A stretch of 40,688 nucleotides of DNA from a virus (IMGVR_UViG_3300028392_001314:1-40688); one strand, 5' to 3'. Counted from the first letter of the stretch, positions 1,414-40,241 are shown. Translations and numbers: made by a program. The notes: a model not told the origin generated them from the sequence alone.

Positions 1414-1421
1414 TATTTATG
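1414..1421 (-). promoter_or_regulatory. Late-type promoter box CATAAATA
   Basis: CATAAATA differs from the T4 late consensus TATAAATA only at the first base. It is followed by 5 nt (TACCT) and then the ATG of the Dps gene. With T4 spacing the +1 would be the A of that ATG. The TAA inside the box is the stop codon of the upstream gene (1417-1419). Confidence 0.5.
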
Positions 1422-3717
1422 TCTGATTATTAGTGTTAGAGAAGGCATCAAATGGAGCTGTATTAGAAATACTCAAAGTCTTATTGTCTTTAATATCTTT
1501 GTACTTCTTTTTAGTCTTTCCATCAGGATTCAATACCCATGCTTCATTTCTTTGCTTTTCCATTTTATCCAAGTGCTTTTGATACGCTGTCGCAGTATCA
1601 AGTTTAGTTGGATCATCAGCCTGAGCAGGTTTACCATTCATTTTGCTGGCAGCAAAGTTAATTCTTTTTGGATGAAACTTACGATCCTTGAATACCCAGT
1701 TACCATCCTTGTCCTGAACCTGAACCTTTTTGGTTTTAGTATCAGAACTATACATATCTTCTTTAAACTGACCATGTTTCTTCAGGTCGTTGTCGAACTG
1801 TTTTCTAGTTGCTTTATTAATACCAGCAAAACGCTTATCGCCTTTTTTATAGTTACCAGATTCGTCAGCTGCTTTAGCGTCTTTACCAGCAGCTGACTTA
1901 TACTTTCCCAAGAGATCAGTTGACAATTCGTCAATCATTTCGATTTCTTCATTGGTTTTGCGATTACCCATAACACGATCTAAAGCACGATCAACACCTG
2001 CCTTACGATTCTTACCCATATCCTTTTCGATACGATTATACATATCTGGCTTCACGCCAACTTTATCTAGATGTTTCTTAGTAGCTGCGCCATAATAATT
2101 GCCTGCTAATTTTGAAGAGATCTCATCAATGTGTTCAACTTCTTCGTGAATTTTGTAACCTTGTTTCTCTAAGTGTTTGCGAGCATGGTGTTCCATATCT
2201 GACTTAGAGTTAGTAGTCATGCCAGTTGTAACAGTGCGCTTATGTTTCTCGCCACCTTCTTTAGAAACTGTATATTCGTAAGTATGTTTTACTGGATCTG
2301 GTCCATTGTGATACTCATCATCTTCACGCTCACGCTTTCTGAAACCAGTGCGATTGTCATGAACACTTTCTGTTACATCAGTATCATAAGAACCAATATG
2401 TCCAGGAATTTGTTTCTTTAATTTACCATCGCCACCCTTAAGAACAGACATTGGTTTACCTGAAGATGGCTCGGCAATATCAACTGCCTTCTCTTTAGAT
2501 CCAGATTTCTTCATAAAATCTTTGTAACGCATGGCAATCTTTTTAGAATCCATTACTTCAGATTCTTCTTTTACATTTACCTTTGTGATTGCATTTTCTA
2601 AATCAGCGTTATGTTTTGCCATAACATCATCGGTAGTAATTGCTTTATGGTCATCCCAATAGTTATGAGATTGGTATTCACCAATACGACCTAGTGCTTG
2701 CTTTGCTTTGTTCTCTTCAGATTTTCTATCTTTACCATCTACCATTGACATGTAAGAATCAGTGTGCTTAATTGCATTTAAAACAGCGACACCATCTTCA
2801 ATGCCACCCTGTTCCCACTTAGAGATAGTTCCTTTAAAAGCATGGAATACTTTAGGATCTTTGTGGAAGTTTGTAGTTGTGTAATTCTTAAAGGAGATTT
2901 CGTTTGGATTTGCGTCAAGATTTTCTTCAATCTTTTTTCTTGATTGGGATACTTTATCGATCCACTTCTTCATCAAGTTGCCTGACTCATTTACTACAGT
3001 AATGTAGTTTGCGCCACGATCCATAATTTCATAGACGCCATCTTCATCTTTAACTCTATCGCCGACATTGAAGATTTTACCAGCGACATATTGTTCGCGA
3101 ATCTTTGTGCGCTCAAAGATAACATTCTCGCGAATAGGATCAAGTCCCATTCCCTTACGGAGATCATTCATTAAACGACGGGAGTCTAATTCTGTTAGAG
3201 TGTGCGGAACACCCTTTTTAAACTGTGTAAAATTACCAGTCTTGGCAGACTCACACATTTTAACATTTGATACAACGGAAACTGTATTGCTGTCTGGATC
3301 AACATCACCAGCGGAGATAACCTTAATGGTATCAAACTGATACATTGTTCCATTATGTTCTTTTAACTGCTGTTCGTATTCGCCAACTTTATCGGCAAAG
3401 GTAACAACAGTAAGATGCTTATACTTCTTACTTAATTCAGATGCCATCTCCACAATGGAAGTAATTCCTTCAGACGACTTGAAGTTTCCCTCAGCGAACA
3501 TACGCTGTAGGAAGTAAACTTTTCTATCTGCTGGGAGTGGGTTTAGTTTCTTGTCTTCGTTTGCAGAAGCGTAGATAACATGGTCGCCGTTGTTGGCGAT
3601 AGATTGGACTGCTTTAACCAAATGTTCGTGCCCAGCTGTAGGTGGCTGGAACTGCCCGAAAGCTGCAACGACTTTATTGGAAGGTAATTCTCTGATTAAT
3701 TGCTTAAAGTTTTTCAT
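1417..3717 (-). CDS. Adenylyl/cytidylyltransferase-like domain fused to long repeat-bearing tail
   Basis: The 766-residue protein begins with a nucleotidyltransferase domain (about residues 12-190): strand VVAAFGQF, then PPTAGH (T-x-G-H active-site motif, residues 25-30), and a distal block ending in LRKGMGL that aligns with the neighbouring protein at 3763-4416. In this family the motif binds the phosphates of ATP or CTP for transfer to a small-molecule phosphate. The ISxxxxR-type motif is degraded here (VSNVKMC). The remaining roughly 550 residues are charged and contain two tandem copies of a unit starting IDE[IL]S..L.G.Y (about residues 525-585 and 588-648). The first ten residues, MKNFKQLIRE, match a T4-type capsid-targeting peptide with an I-x-E site. 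The start has GGAAAAAG upstream. Substrate unknown; a packaged protein is an inference. Confidence 0.78.
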   Translation of the reverse strand: MKNFKQLIRELPSNKVVAAFGQFQPPTAGHEHLVKAVQSIANNGDHVIYASANEDKKLNPLPADRKVYFLQRMFAEGNFKSSEGITSIVEMASELSKKYKHLTVVTFADKVGEYEQQLKEHNGTMYQFDTIKVISAGDVDPDSNTVSVVSNVKMCESAKTGNFTQFKKGVPHTLTELDSRRLMNDLRKGMGLDPIRENVIFERTKIREQYVAGKIFNVGDRVKDEDGVYEIMDRGANYITVVNESGNLMKKWIDKVSQSRKKIEENLDANPNEISFKNYTTTNFHKDPKVFHAFKGTISKWEQGGIEDGVAVLNAIKHTDSYMSMVDGKDRKSEENKAKQALGRIGEYQSHNYWDDHKAITTDDVMAKHNADLENAITKVNVKEESEVMDSKKIAMRYKDFMKKSGSKEKAVDIAEPSSGKPMSVLKGGDGKLKKQIPGHIGSYDTDVTESVHDNRTGFRKREREDDEYHNGPDPVKHTYEYTVSKEGGEKHKRTVTTGMTTNSKSDMEHHARKHLEKQGYKIHEEVEHIDEISSKLAGNYYGAATKKHLDKVGVKPDMYNRIEKDMGKNRKAGVDRALDRVMGNRKTNEEIEMIDELSTDLLGKYKSAAGKDAKAADESGNYKKGDKRFAGINKATRKQFDNDLKKHGQFKEDMYSSDTKTKKVQVQDKDGNWVFKDRKFHPKRINFAASKMNGKPAQADDPTKLDTATAYQKHLDKMEKQRNEAWVLNPDGKTKKKYKDIKDNKTLSISNTAPFDAFSNTNNQT

Positions 3718-3762
3718 CTTTTTCCATCTATAAAATAATATTACTAGTATTATTTAGGTCTT

Positions 3763-4416
3763 TTAATCTTTATGCCCCATACCTTTACGAACATCGTGAT
3801 ACATAGCGTCTTTATGTTTTGCGCTCATACCTGTTGGAGCACCAGCATGGAACGCTGTCTTATTACCTGAAGCAGCATGTTCGCGCATTTTACTGGCAGA
3901 GATACCAGTCGTTCCTTCAGCATCTGGATCACGCTCGCCAGAAGAGTGAACAGTGATAGACTTGAAATTATAGTGACCATGGGCAGATGGCACATTGTTA
4001 TATTTGTGTAAGAGTTTATGCATCTCTTCATGACGATCAGAACCAGCAACTACATGAAGATGTTGCGCCCCAGTAGAATGTGCTCGAGCAGCATGGTGAA
4101 GGATAGTAGGGTGTTCTTTACTAGCAGCAGTTACATTAGTTCCAGGAAAAGCATTCTTGGCATGCTTAACTTTCTGTGCAGCAGTCAATGGATTCTTCTT
4201 AGCATCTTGACTGTGAGAAACAATAACAACATGGTCAGCGTTATGTTTCTTGGCAACTTCATGCACTTTATTAACTACTGCTTGGTGACCATGAGTAATT
4301 GGATTCATGCGACCGAATGCCATTACCTTATGGGATTTAAGAGAAACAGATCCATCTGTTTTTTCTTTTCCACCTAGTTCTTCTAGGATAGCAACAAAAC
4401 TTTTAAACGATAACAT
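3763..4416 (-). CDS. Adenylyltransferase-like protein (NMNAT/PPAT fold)
   Basis: A 217-residue protein with both nucleotidyltransferase signatures: GRMNPITHGH at residues 35-44 (T-x-G-H type, as in phosphopantetheine adenylyltransferase) and ISASKMR at 172-178 (the ISSTxxR motif of NMN adenylyltransferases). This predicts transfer of AMP from ATP onto a mononucleotide or a similar phosphate, and NAD synthesis is one candidate. It is paralogous to the first 190 residues of the next gene; both end their domain with [LV]RKGMG[LH]. I start it at ATG 4416, which overlaps the previous stop as TAATG and gives the N-terminus MLSFKSFVAILEE, like its neighbours; a GTG at 4428 is less likely. The L-E-E at 11-13 could be a prohead protease site. 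The protein is very histidine-rich. Confidence 0.82.
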   Translation of the reverse strand: MLSFKSFVAILEELGGKEKTDGSVSLKSHKVMAFGRMNPITHGHQAVVNKVHEVAKKHNADHVVIVSHSQDAKKNPLTAAQKVKHAKNAFPGTNVTAASKEHPTILHHAARAHSTGAQHLHVVAGSDRHEEMHKLLHKYNNVPSAHGHYNFKSITVHSSGERDPDAEGTTGISASKMREHAASGNKTAFHAGAPTGMSAKHKDAMYHDVRKGMGHKD

Positions 4417-5054
4417 TAGCAATTCCACTTTCTCAATGCGAGTGCCTTACGAGTTGGCTCACCATTAGGTTTCTTCATTGGACCTTCTACGCCAGACATA
4501 CGAGCACAGAAAGATTTACGGCGATTAGCAGCTTTGCTTCCTGGCTTCAATTTAGAAGGAGGAGTTGTCACTGGTGCTTTAAGATGTCCACCAAATTTAT
4601 TATTGTAGTAGTCGCGACCCTTTTGGGTTAGACCACCTGTTGGATTCTTATAACCCTTAGCATCTTCTTCGATTTCGACTTCTTCATTCTTAGGTTTCTT
4701 ACCAGCTTTTTTCATAGCGATAGCAGTGGCTGCTTGTTTTGCCCAGTTCGCTGCAGTTTCTAACAACTCTTCATCAGAAACTTCATCAAGACTTTCCCAT
4801 ACTGTTTCTGAATCTAACTCATTAGTTTCAGCCAAGTGTTCAACGAATTGTTCAATTATATCGAATTGGGATTCTACTTCTTCTTTCTTAGAAGTTGCCT
4901 CAGATGCTTTGAAGTCAGCAGCAGATGGAGCACCCTTGCTTCCTGGCTTGCGCATACGCTCACCAGAACCATTTTTGATTCGTTCTTGTTTAGCATGGAT
5001 GTTATCCCACAACCCACGCTTACCTTCTTCAAGATATTCTTTAAATGATACCAT
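4416..5054 (-). CDS. Phage protein with DUF6321-like C-terminus, predicted capsid-internal
   Basis: 212 residues. The last 48 carry a pattern I recall from an uncharacterised phage family (DUF6321-like): KPGSKAANRRKSFCARMSG, then a GPMKK block and the terminal ALRKWNC. The family assignment is from memory and is not checked. The middle is acidic and then lysine-rich, without an enzyme motif. The N-terminus MVSFKEYLEE aligns position by position with the T4 internal-protein targeting peptide, ending in L-E-E. The start at 5054 has an AGAGGAATAAT ribosome site that contains the stop of the preceding gene. It sits between a 59-residue gene and the adenylyltransferase-like gene, which it overlaps by one base. 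Confidence 0.75.
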   Translation of the reverse strand: MVSFKEYLEEGKRGLWDNIHAKQERIKNGSGERMRKPGSKGAPSAADFKASEATSKKEEVESQFDIIEQFVEHLAETNELDSETVWESLDEVSDEELLETAANWAKQAATAIAMKKAGKKPKNEEVEIEEDAKGYKNPTGGLTQKGRDYYNNKFGGHLKAPVTTPPSKLKPGSKAANRRKSFCARMSGVEGPMKKPNGEPTRKALALRKWNC

Positions 5055-5055
5055 A

Positions 5056-5235
5056 TTATTCCTCTATAATTGTCAATCGGTTTGGATTTGATTCTTCTTT
5101 CCACAACTGAACATCTTTTTCTACGAGTTGAGTTTTCTCAAGAGCCTTTTCCGCAACAACTTCTTTTGTTTGTTCAGGATTTTGTTCTGCGTATTTTTCT
5201 AATTCTTTAAGTGCTGCTGCAATTAGGTTTGACAT
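5056..5235 (-). CDS. Small acidic hypothetical protein (59 aa)
   Basis: I choose ATG 5235 because AGGAAG lies just upstream and because longer starts would run far into the previous gene. The 59 residues are alanine-, glutamate- and lysine-rich (start MSNLIAAALKELEKYAEQ) and should form a long amphipathic helix. There is no signal peptide and no known motif. It lies one base after the ligase-like gene and one base before the DUF6321-like gene, so it is surely co-expressed with them. A scaffold-like or packaged role is only a guess. Confidence 0.65.
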   Translation of the reverse strand: MSNLIAAALKELEKYAEQNPEQTKEVVAEKALEKTQLVEKDVQLWKEESNPNRLTIIEE

Positions 5236-5236
5236 A

Positions 5237-6454
5237 TTATTCTTCCTTTGGTTTTCTTGACTTGAGTAAGTTTGCTTTGGCAAACTCAGAACGATTAACT
5301 AACTTAGATGGTTCAGTTTTACCATTATGTTCATGATTAATAACGAAACCCTCTGGCTTAGATTCTTTGCCTTCGATATGATGTTCGTATTTGTCATGAC
5401 CAGACTCAAGATGTTTAACCAGAGTATTCTTGGCTTGAGCCAAGTGGTGATGCATGTTTAATAAGTTATCATAATGTCCCTTGTTCTTTTCAACATGGGC
5501 AACTTGAGAAGCACCTTCGGCTTTGTGTTTTGCTTGACCAGCTTCTGATTTCAACTTAGATGCTTTCTTTTCATGAACATCATTAAGGTGTTGTTGAAAA
5601 CCCTTAGCAGTTGGAATCTCATCATGACGAACTGTCTTGTTGATGTATGTTCCAAGATGACCAGTATCACCACTATGCGTTTTATGAACTGCGTTATACA
5701 TTTTAGAACCATGAGTATCATGAATTGCTTTAGCAGCATTCATATGCTTATGGAATTCGTCTTGTGATTTTTGTGGATAACTAATCTTGCTAGTATCATG
5801 ACTAGCATCATGGTGGTGAACATCAGGATGTTGACCAAAGTCTTTGTGATTTACATCGTGGTGAGCAGACATAGAAGCAATGTCTTTACCATGATATTGA
5901 GTATGAACAGCGATACCTACTTTAGACTTTGCGATTTTCTTTGCTTCATCGCCATGAGCAGTGTAAGTAATTGTATTTGGAGTAAAGGAAGATTTTCCTG
6001 TTTTCTTGTCATGAGTAACAGAACCTTTATCGCCACCAGAGTGCATCAAGTCACCTTGATAAACACCTTTCTTTGGTGTAACTTTTGGTAGGTGCTCAAG
6101 AGCAGCTTTAAGGTGATGAACAAGACCAGGAGCATGACCATGATTCTTTTCGATGTCTGCTGGAGTGTGATTAATCTTTGGGTCTTTATTGAACGCAGAC
6201 TTTGTAGCTACAAAGAACTTTCCGTTCTTAGGATGGTGTCCAAAAACAACAGCTGGAGAACCATCATATTTTGTAGTGAGGTTACTGTTATTAGAACCAG
6301 ACTTCATATGCTCATGAGCATGAGTCAATGCGCCATGGGCATGTTCGAAACCCTCATGACCATGGAACAGTGGACGATCCTCTGGATGAGTAATATGTTT
6401 AAGTTTAGAGCCTTCTTCGGCTTCTTCCTTCAGGAATGTCTGGAACGATTTCAT
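5237..6454 (-). CDS. Ligase-like covalent nucleotidyltransferase, predicted capsid-internal
   Basis: The 405-residue protein carries what look like the core motifs of the ATP-dependent ligase/capping superfamily: motif I KYDG at 62-65 (K62 would take the AMP), motif IV EGFVI at 368-372 and motif V with K384 in SKLVNR. The family seals or caps nucleic acid through an enzyme-AMP intermediate. About 150 residues between motifs I and IV are extremely rich in His and Lys. I recall an uncharacterised phage family with the same KxDGSPAVVFG block (possibly DUF6267, not checked). The start is ATG 6454 with AGAGGG upstream; the longer frame to 6499 would begin inside the promoter. The N-terminus MKSFQTFLKE is almost a conservative copy of the T4 capsid-targeting peptide. 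It is the first gene after a strong dual promoter. Confidence 0.75.
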   Translation of the reverse strand: MKSFQTFLKEEAEEGSKLKHITHPEDRPLFHGHEGFEHAHGALTHAHEHMKSGSNNSNLTTKYDGSPAVVFGHHPKNGKFFVATKSAFNKDPKINHTPADIEKNHGHAPGLVHHLKAALEHLPKVTPKKGVYQGDLMHSGGDKGSVTHDKKTGKSSFTPNTITYTAHGDEAKKIAKSKVGIAVHTQYHGKDIASMSAHHDVNHKDFGQHPDVHHHDASHDTSKISYPQKSQDEFHKHMNAAKAIHDTHGSKMYNAVHKTHSGDTGHLGTYINKTVRHDEIPTAKGFQQHLNDVHEKKASKLKSEAGQAKHKAEGASQVAHVEKNKGHYDNLLNMHHHLAQAKNTLVKHLESGHDKYEHHIEGKESKPEGFVINHEHNGKTEPSKLVNRSEFAKANLLKSRKPKEE

Positions 6455-6474: not shown

Positions 6475-6482
6475 TATTTATA
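6475..6482 (-). promoter_or_regulatory. Late promoter box TATAAATA
   Basis: A perfect T4 late consensus on the minus strand that shares its first base with the -10 box of the sigma70-type promoter just upstream. It leaves a leader of about 15 nt with an AGAGGG ribosome site before ATG 6454. Late transcription by gp55 fits a cluster of predicted capsid proteins. Confidence 0.7.
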
Positions 6483-38966: not shown

Positions 38967-40241
38967 TTACATCAAGTTAGTAACAGCTACACGACGGTAG
39001 TAGTAGTTCTCGTTAGCAGTCAAGCCACCAGAACCATCCAATGAAACGAATGGGTTAGCAACCATACCATAACGAGTCTTGAAACCAATCTTAGGTTGGA
39101 AAGTGTTAGGATCTACAGCACGAACCAATTGTAATGGAACATATGGGCAATAGAACAAACCAGCGTCAAAAGCAGAAGTACCTTTGTAGCCAACAGTGAA
39201 GAACTGAGTAGCTGATTGGTTAGCAGAGAATGGATCAACATAAACTTTGTAACGACCATTCAATACACCAGCAAAAGTAGTAGATGCTTCGTCAACATTC
39301 AAGTTAGTAGACAATGCAGGAGCGTAATCTAATACACCAGCCATTGCCAAAGCAGAAGCTACATCTGAAGAACAGATGATAAAGTTACCTTTACCACGAC
39401 GAGTTTGTTGAGCAATAGCATTGGCATCGCGTTCAATTTGGAACAAGAGACCTTTGAATTTTTCAACAGACCAACGACCATTAGAGTCAGTATCTAAGTC
39501 GAAAGTACCAGCAGTAGTAGTACCAACTTGAGCACCTGGCTTAGCAGTTTTGTAGATAGTACGGAGAACTTCGCGATTGATTTCAGCAAGAATCTCAGTA
39601 GAGAGAATGTTGCTCAATTCGCCTTCAGCGTCAAGACCATGAACAGACTTCAAGTCTTGTGCCAATTCAACAGTGTATTCAGCTTTCAACGCACGAGTCT
39701 TAGCAGTTACGCTAGTCTTCTCGATTGAGAATGCCATTTGATTGAAAGTAGTGCTATCGCCCAAACCTTCAGCATCAGAAGTAGTCAAACCAGTACCAGT
39801 TTGATAAGTACCAGAAACTGGGTTTTGACCAGTGTTAGTACCAGTACCACCGAAAGAAGTATCAGCTGCATTGAACAATGCCTCAGTACCACCTTGAGTA
39901 GAATAACGGCTCTTCATTGCGAAGATCAAACCAGTAGGTTGTGTCATTGGTTGTACACCGCAAACATCATAAGCGATCATTTGTGGAGCAGCACGGCGAA
40001 CCAAGCTGATCAATACTGGATCAAACTTAGCGATACCACCAGTGTCGCCATAAGAACCAACAGCGTTAGCTGCAGTAGTTTCAAACAACGCTTCTTGTTG
40101 TTTACCCATTTCGCGTTCTTGGTTTTCCAAAAGAACAGCAGTAACTTCCTTACGGTAGTTGTCCTTGATTGATGGCAATGCATCATGCTCAAGAATCGGT
40201 GCCCATTTTTTCAATAGAGCTTGACGATCTAAATTAGACAT
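38967..40241 (-). CDS. 23: Major capsid protein gp23
   Basis: 424 residues. The N-terminal MSNLDRQALLKKWAPILEHD is the propeptide. Cleavage is likely after E54 in ALFE/TTAANA, an L-x-E site of the T4 prohead protease. The HK97-fold body has VISLVRRAAPQMIAYDVCGVQ-like sequence and the end RYGMVANPFVSLDG. It forms the capsid hexamers. AAGGAAAT precedes the start. A strong terminator follows. Confidence 0.96.
   Translation of the reverse strand: MSNLDRQALLKKWAPILEHDALPSIKDNYRKEVTAVLLENQEREMGKQQEALFETTAANAVGSYGDTGGIAKFDPVLISLVRRAAPQMIAYDVCGVQPMTQPTGLIFAMKSRYSTQGGTEALFNAADTSFGGTGTNTGQNPVSGTYQTGTGLTTSDAEGLGDSTTFNQMAFSIEKTSVTAKTRALKAEYTVELAQDLKSVHGLDAEGELSNILSTEILAEINREVLRTIYKTAKPGAQVGTTTAGTFDLDTDSNGRWSVEKFKGLLFQIERDANAIAQQTRRGKGNFIICSSDVASALAMAGVLDYAPALSTNLNVDEASTTFAGVLNGRYKVYVDPFSANQSATQFFTVGYKGTSAFDAGLFYCPYVPLQLVRAVDPNTFQPKIGFKTRYGMVANPFVSLDGSGGLTANENYYYRRVAVTNLM

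Follow-up and report, generated by a model that had tools for sequence, protein, structure and literature searches.

Several neighbouring genes of a T4-like phage begin with much the same ten codons' worth of protein. Does this short N-terminal peptide address their products to the phage head, and what would the addressed proteins be? The window (the whole stretch of DNA analysed, 40.7 kb) is a fragment of a T4-like freshwater phage. Among its minus-strand proteins we recognised gp22, gp23, gp19, UvsW, gp55, gp46/47, gp44/45, gp43, UvsX and gp41; searches confirmed the identity of gp22 and gp23 (the latter with Pfam), and the remaining T4-like genes were identified by eye. The row of interest, also on the minus strand, lies downstream of gp41 and four more genes and encodes, in order, a DUF6267 protein, a 59-aa protein, a DUF6321 protein, CytT1 and CytT2 (Table 1). 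The 59-aa protein carries no tag and gave no family match in searches. The other four are the open reading frames singled out by the original prediction, and they start where it placed them, at 6454, 5054, 4416 and 3717.

Table 1. Tagged gene row, associated elements and major capsid gene of the window
Feature	Coordinates	Strand	Basis and N-terminal tag
DUF6267 protein, 405 aa	5237..6454	-	Pfam DUF6267, E=4e-104; tag MKSFQTFLKE, residues 1-10
Tag-coding stretch (10 residues) of DUF6267 gene	6425..6454	-	Sequence; codons vary, residues 4, 7, 8 and 10 kept
TATAAATA, T4-type late promoter sequence upstream of DUF6267 gene	6475..6482	-	Sequence scan
59-aa protein, without tag	5056..5235	-	Family searches, homologue alignment
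DUF6321 protein, 212 aa	4416..5054	-	Pfam DUF6321, E=1.3e-25; tag MVSFKEYLEE
CytT1, predicted cytidylyl/adenylyltransferase, 217 aa	3763..4416	-	PF01467 above cut-off, AF2 model; stretched tag MLSFKSFVAILEE
CytT2, 766 aa	1417..3717	-	phrog_3041 cytidyltransferase, E=4.7e-53; tag MKNFKQLIRE
gp23 major capsid protein	38967..40241	-	Pfam Gp23, E=5.5e-142; predicted gp21-type cleavage site between EALFE and TT

Three of the four proteins (those starting at 6454, 5054 and 3717) match M-x-x-F-x-x-[FYL]-[LI]-x-E exactly, with F at residue 4, F, Y or L at 7 and, as had been pointed out, L or I at 8 and E at 10. CytT1 had been described as similar, and it does carry a stretched form of the peptide; the strict pattern is broken by V8 and I10, with I-L-E and L-E-E falling at residues 10-13. 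The window peptides resemble those of T4 IPII and IPIII, which likewise are ten residues long and N-terminal, with an aromatic residue at 4 and 7, I/L at 8 and E at 10. In the T4 capsid-targeting sequence (CTS), targeting is governed by residues 4 and 7 and processing by residues 8 and 10, and Asp at position 10 blocks trimming without blocking targeting (PMC9026906). Loss of E10 therefore need not mean loss of packaging. The start MKTYQEFIAE, attributed earlier to the T4 internal proteins and Alt together, belongs to IPII and IPIII only; Alt begins MELITELFDE and IPI begins MKTFKEFTST. A control scan of ~98 kb of T4 recovered IPII and IPIII, with e.5 and rnh matching a looser pattern only.

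We assessed conservation in dereplicated homologues from IMG/VR, scoring a match when all four positions (4, 7, 8 and 10) agreed. The tag was found in 45/60 homologues of DUF6267 (52/60 if a shift was allowed), 35/46 of DUF6321 and 32/43 of CytT2, where E10 was replaced by Q or G in seven; for CytT1 the strict form was present in under half (22/51). The expectation that L/I-x-E would be kept at residues 8-10 held across the four families, least so in CytT1. In DUF6267 and DUF6321, the residues that follow E10 vary in both sequence and length, and positions 4, 8 and 10 rank with the most constant ones. Of the four tagged families, three are unrelated to one another; in most cases the tag is followed by a variable linker. 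CytT2 seems the weakest case: its tag runs straight into the conserved domain with no linker, and conservation at the four key positions does not exceed that of adjacent residues. DUF6267 and CytT are fused in some genomes, and the tag was seen at the junction in 0/11 distinct fusions, which is what an address label at the N-terminus would predict. In the AF2 model of DUF6267, residues 1-16 form a low-confidence add-on to an otherwise confident structure. These observations suggest that, as in T4 IPII and IPIII, the tag is modular, sitting on unrelated proteins and outside the folded domain, CytT2 excepted.

A gp21-type protease is encoded by 6/6 near-complete relatives; the window, a 40.7-kb fragment, gave no gp21 match. 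At the expected gp23 site, A-[LI]-F-E is found in the window and in the six relatives. The window sequence there is EALFE before TTAANAV, confirming that the gp23 propeptide ends in L-F-E. These sites point to recognition of L/I-x-E by the protease of this lineage, which thus shares with T4 both the gp21-type enzyme and the L/I-x-E gp23 site. The sequence TATAAATA, which we take to be the T4 late promoter consensus, occurs within 90 nt upstream of two window genes only, DUF6267 and the gp19 tail tube gene. Its total in the window is not above chance (4 vs 2.6 expected), and the placement alone is informative. In 3/6 relatives the sequence also precedes whichever tagged gene leads the row. Including the window, this gives 4/7 genomes in which the leading tagged gene has it, compared to 26/1440 other genes (P=5e-6), a test that was picked after the window had been seen and that draws on related genomes which are not phylogenetically independent.

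Cytidylyltransferases in cyanophage virions are already known (PMC3037559, PMC9602691, PMC10665884), and we asked how the tag is distributed in such particles. The published mass spectrometry (MS) data come from the cyanophages S-CREM2, S-SCSM1 and S-SZBM1. For S-CREM2, 52/219 proteins were detected in virions (PMC10665884 Table 3). Six annotated CDS of this phage match the tag, and five of the six are virion-detected (P=0.003 against the overall fraction): gp6, annotated as a SAM hydrolase (MKDFDSFLEE); gp13 (MKDLHSFLTE); gp14, a kinase with a GTG start (MKRFDAFLTE); gp136 (MQTFSMFFSE); and gp154, a cytidylyltransferase (MKNFSSFLTE, then A). The sixth is a 55-aa ORF. Another protein in the virion list, gp12, has RFASFMAEA further inside. 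The virion NMNAT of S-SCSM1 (gp91) starts MKSFLQFLKEA, the virion cytidylyltransferase of S-SZBM1 (gp140) starts MRFRQFIIEA, and a kinase of S-CRM01, which is reported in virions (PMC10665884), starts MISFDQFLSE. When the three MS phages were pooled, 7/11 tagged proteins were detected versus 127/719 overall (stratified P=0.0014), a signal driven by S-CREM2; in S-SZBM1 alone and in S-SCSM1 alone the association between tag and virion was not significant. The four tagged proteins that went undetected are all small.

Packaging by a T4-type capsid-targeting peptide, the first part of the original prediction, is therefore well supported, by the conserved residues, the restriction to one row, the gp21-type protease and gp23 L-x-E site of the relatives, the late promoter and the tagged homologues in virions. 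We judge it quite probable that the window N-terminal peptides are T4-type capsid-targeting sequences, and the system likely works like the T4 CTS. Because tagged enzymes of related phages are present in purified particles, the tag probably marks an injected enzyme kit.

The tag might instead be a docking helix, shared by proteins that gather into one cytoplasmic complex late in infection (e.g. on a common partner) and are found in particles by accident. The tagged genes do lie in one row, DUF6267 and CytT are sometimes fused, and the S-CREM2 authors themselves allow for co-purification (PMC10665884). In S-CREM2, however, the tag is carried by scattered, unrelated genes (gp6, gp13, gp14, gp136 and gp154), every one of them virion-detected, and the tag ends in a protease site of the L/I-x-E type, like that of gp23. 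We consider a docking helix unlikely.

If the tag is a capsid-targeting sequence, what are the proteins behind it? Several had been predicted to be nucleotidyl-transfer enzymes, a claim that fares differently for each. CytT1 scores 26.5 bits against Pfam PF01467 (cut-off 21) and contains the motifs T-H-G-H and S-A-S-K-M-R. Foldseek searches with its AF2 model (pLDDT 88) returned PPAT (5e-5), NaMNAT (6e-4) and also NMN adenylyltransferases. By predicted fold, CytT1 is an adenylyltransferase of the NMNAT/PPAT type. A PDB sequence search with CytT1 gave no match, and we rejected NMNAT as a firm name, as the NCBIfam equivalogs score below cut-off. CytT2 consists of an N-terminal cytidylyltransferase-like domain and a long C-terminal region. 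It falls below the PF01467 cut-off and has T-A-G-H, together with S-N-V-K-M-C in place of the S-A-S-K-M-R of CytT1, a substitution that makes its activity uncertain; a nucleotidyl-transfer function is plausible. The DUF6321 protein shows no sign of being an enzyme.

For DUF6267, the case is made at the level of motifs. Its invariant residues, K62-x-D64-G65, E368-G369-x-V371 and K384, are ordered as ligase motifs I, IV and V, which suggests a ligase-like protein. Searches against the PDB gave no significant match, and hhalign with T4 RnlA/RnlB was null. Significant structural similarity was confined to other viral proteins, some of which are annotated as cytidyltransferase-like. A proven RNA ligase is thus unsupported by PDB sequence search, Foldseek and hhalign alike, and was rejected as a name.

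Proteins packaged by the tag could also be internal head or DNA-associated components rather than injected effectors. T4 IPIII affects head assembly (PMC9026906), and neither the DUF6321 protein nor the CytT2 tail resembles an enzyme. Against this, CytT1 has an enzyme fold complete with T-H-G-H and S-A-S-K-M-R, and a kinase and a SAM hydrolase, both so annotated, are among the tagged cargo seen elsewhere. A purely internal role for the cargo strikes us as doubtful, slightly more so than a docking helix.

We counted the pattern M-x-x-[FYL]-x-x-[FYL]-[LIVM]-x-E across the window and the six near-complete relatives (160-174 kb each). It occurs in 21/27 genes of the four families, compared to 2/1420 other genes, and at 8/5798 internal methionines (~0.15%). 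Three matches among the 47 called genes of the window correspond to a binomial P of ~5e-5, before their placement in one row is counted. The four window tags represent at most three independent occurrences, since CytT1 and CytT2 are both cytidylyltransferase-like. Chance combined with common descent, which would appeal to this shared domain, to the general frequency of short hydrophobic N-termini and to the linkerless, unexceptional tag of CytT2, is very improbable, as two families without relation to CytT, DUF6267 and DUF6321, retain these four positions ahead of variable linkers, and chance similarity by itself is rejected by the gene counts. We likewise rejected an element acting at the nucleic-acid level where the genes begin: codons vary at the conserved residues, indicating that the constraint acts on protein.

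With the tag read as a capsid-targeting sequence, a sequence of events can be proposed. The row would be made late, together with the structural genes, as the promoter placement suggests. Tag residues 4 and 7 (aromatic/hydrophobic) would dock each protein on the scaffold core of the prohead, to be enclosed when the shell forms; the analogy with T4 and the homologues in virions support this step. A gp21-type prohead protease would then cut after L/I-x-E (residues 8-10), freeing the protein in the DNA-filled head, and the proteins would accompany the DNA into the cell, there to act ahead of phage gene expression. We infer cleavage after E10 and injection for the window proteins, in which the residues after E10, unlike in IPII and IPIII, include E, G and L. 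The cargo would comprise CytT1, with its NMNAT/PPAT-type adenylyl/cytidylyltransferase fold; CytT2, a long protein with a second such domain; the ligase-motif DUF6267 protein; and the DUF6321 protein. IPII and IPIII, in contrast, are small and basic. T4 Alt, an ADP-ribosyltransferase, offers another parallel: it is loaded into the head, cut by gp21 and injected, as the window enzymes would be. The Alt peptide is differently built, and we found no sequence relation between the enzymes.

The task of the cargo would likely be early nucleotide/NAD or RNA-end chemistry, perhaps directed against host defence. A broader proposal, which we offer tentatively and think less likely than not, is that in Kyanoviridae-like phages the T4-type tag serves generally as a code for loading enzymes, which together make up an exchangeable kit. 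For the freshwater lineage studied here, the kit would be a set of injected enzymes for NAD/RNA-end repair (the NMNAT-like ones and the new ligase-like DUF6267, joined in relatives by a P-loop kinase and by a HAD phosphatase that carries the tag). It would counter host defences that deplete NAD or cut RNA, at a stage when no phage gene has yet been read. DUF6267 lacks the tag in S-SZBM1, S-CRM01 and HTVC008M, and the untagged S-SZBM1 protein was not detected in particles. Set beside the tagged protein of the window, this suggests, from one phage, that gaining or losing ten residues can bring the same protein into the injected set or remove it.

Whether such a kit is new, as had been claimed, depends on which part is meant. 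The virion cytidylyltransferase/NMNAT proteins of cyanophages (S-CREM2 gp154, S-SCSM1 gp91 and S-SZBM1 gp140; T4-GC190 in S-SM1) have a homologous domain and a similar gene neighbourhood and were detected in particles by MS, and the first three share the window's N-terminal tag. They are single proteins, whereas the window has a tagged row, and the accounts we consulted do not explain their presence by a targeting peptide. The S-CREM2/S-CRM01 virion kinase and the S-CREM2 SAM hydrolase have the tag in common with the window, which lacks the enzymes themselves. Our literature search found no paper that connects the virion enzymes of cyanophages with a capsid-targeting sequence and none naming DUF6267; most subscription papers and supplements lay outside its reach, and an earlier mention is possible in either case.

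Cyanobacteria, pelagibacteria and freshwater bacteria are hosts to very abundant T4-like phages, and little is known of what these phages inject besides DNA. A short, readable tag that predicts head-borne proteins would allow candidate injected effectors to be listed from sequence alone, and would account for the cytidylyltransferases, kinases and SAM hydrolase in cyanophage virion proteomes.

The corresponding rows of relatives hold other proteins as well. In HTVC008M, gp129 is a Zeta-toxin/polynucleotide-kinase-like P-loop protein, and a tagged HAD-like phosphatase, identified by a weak match, is also encoded in such rows. Further tagged families, to which no role is assigned, are also present in these rows.

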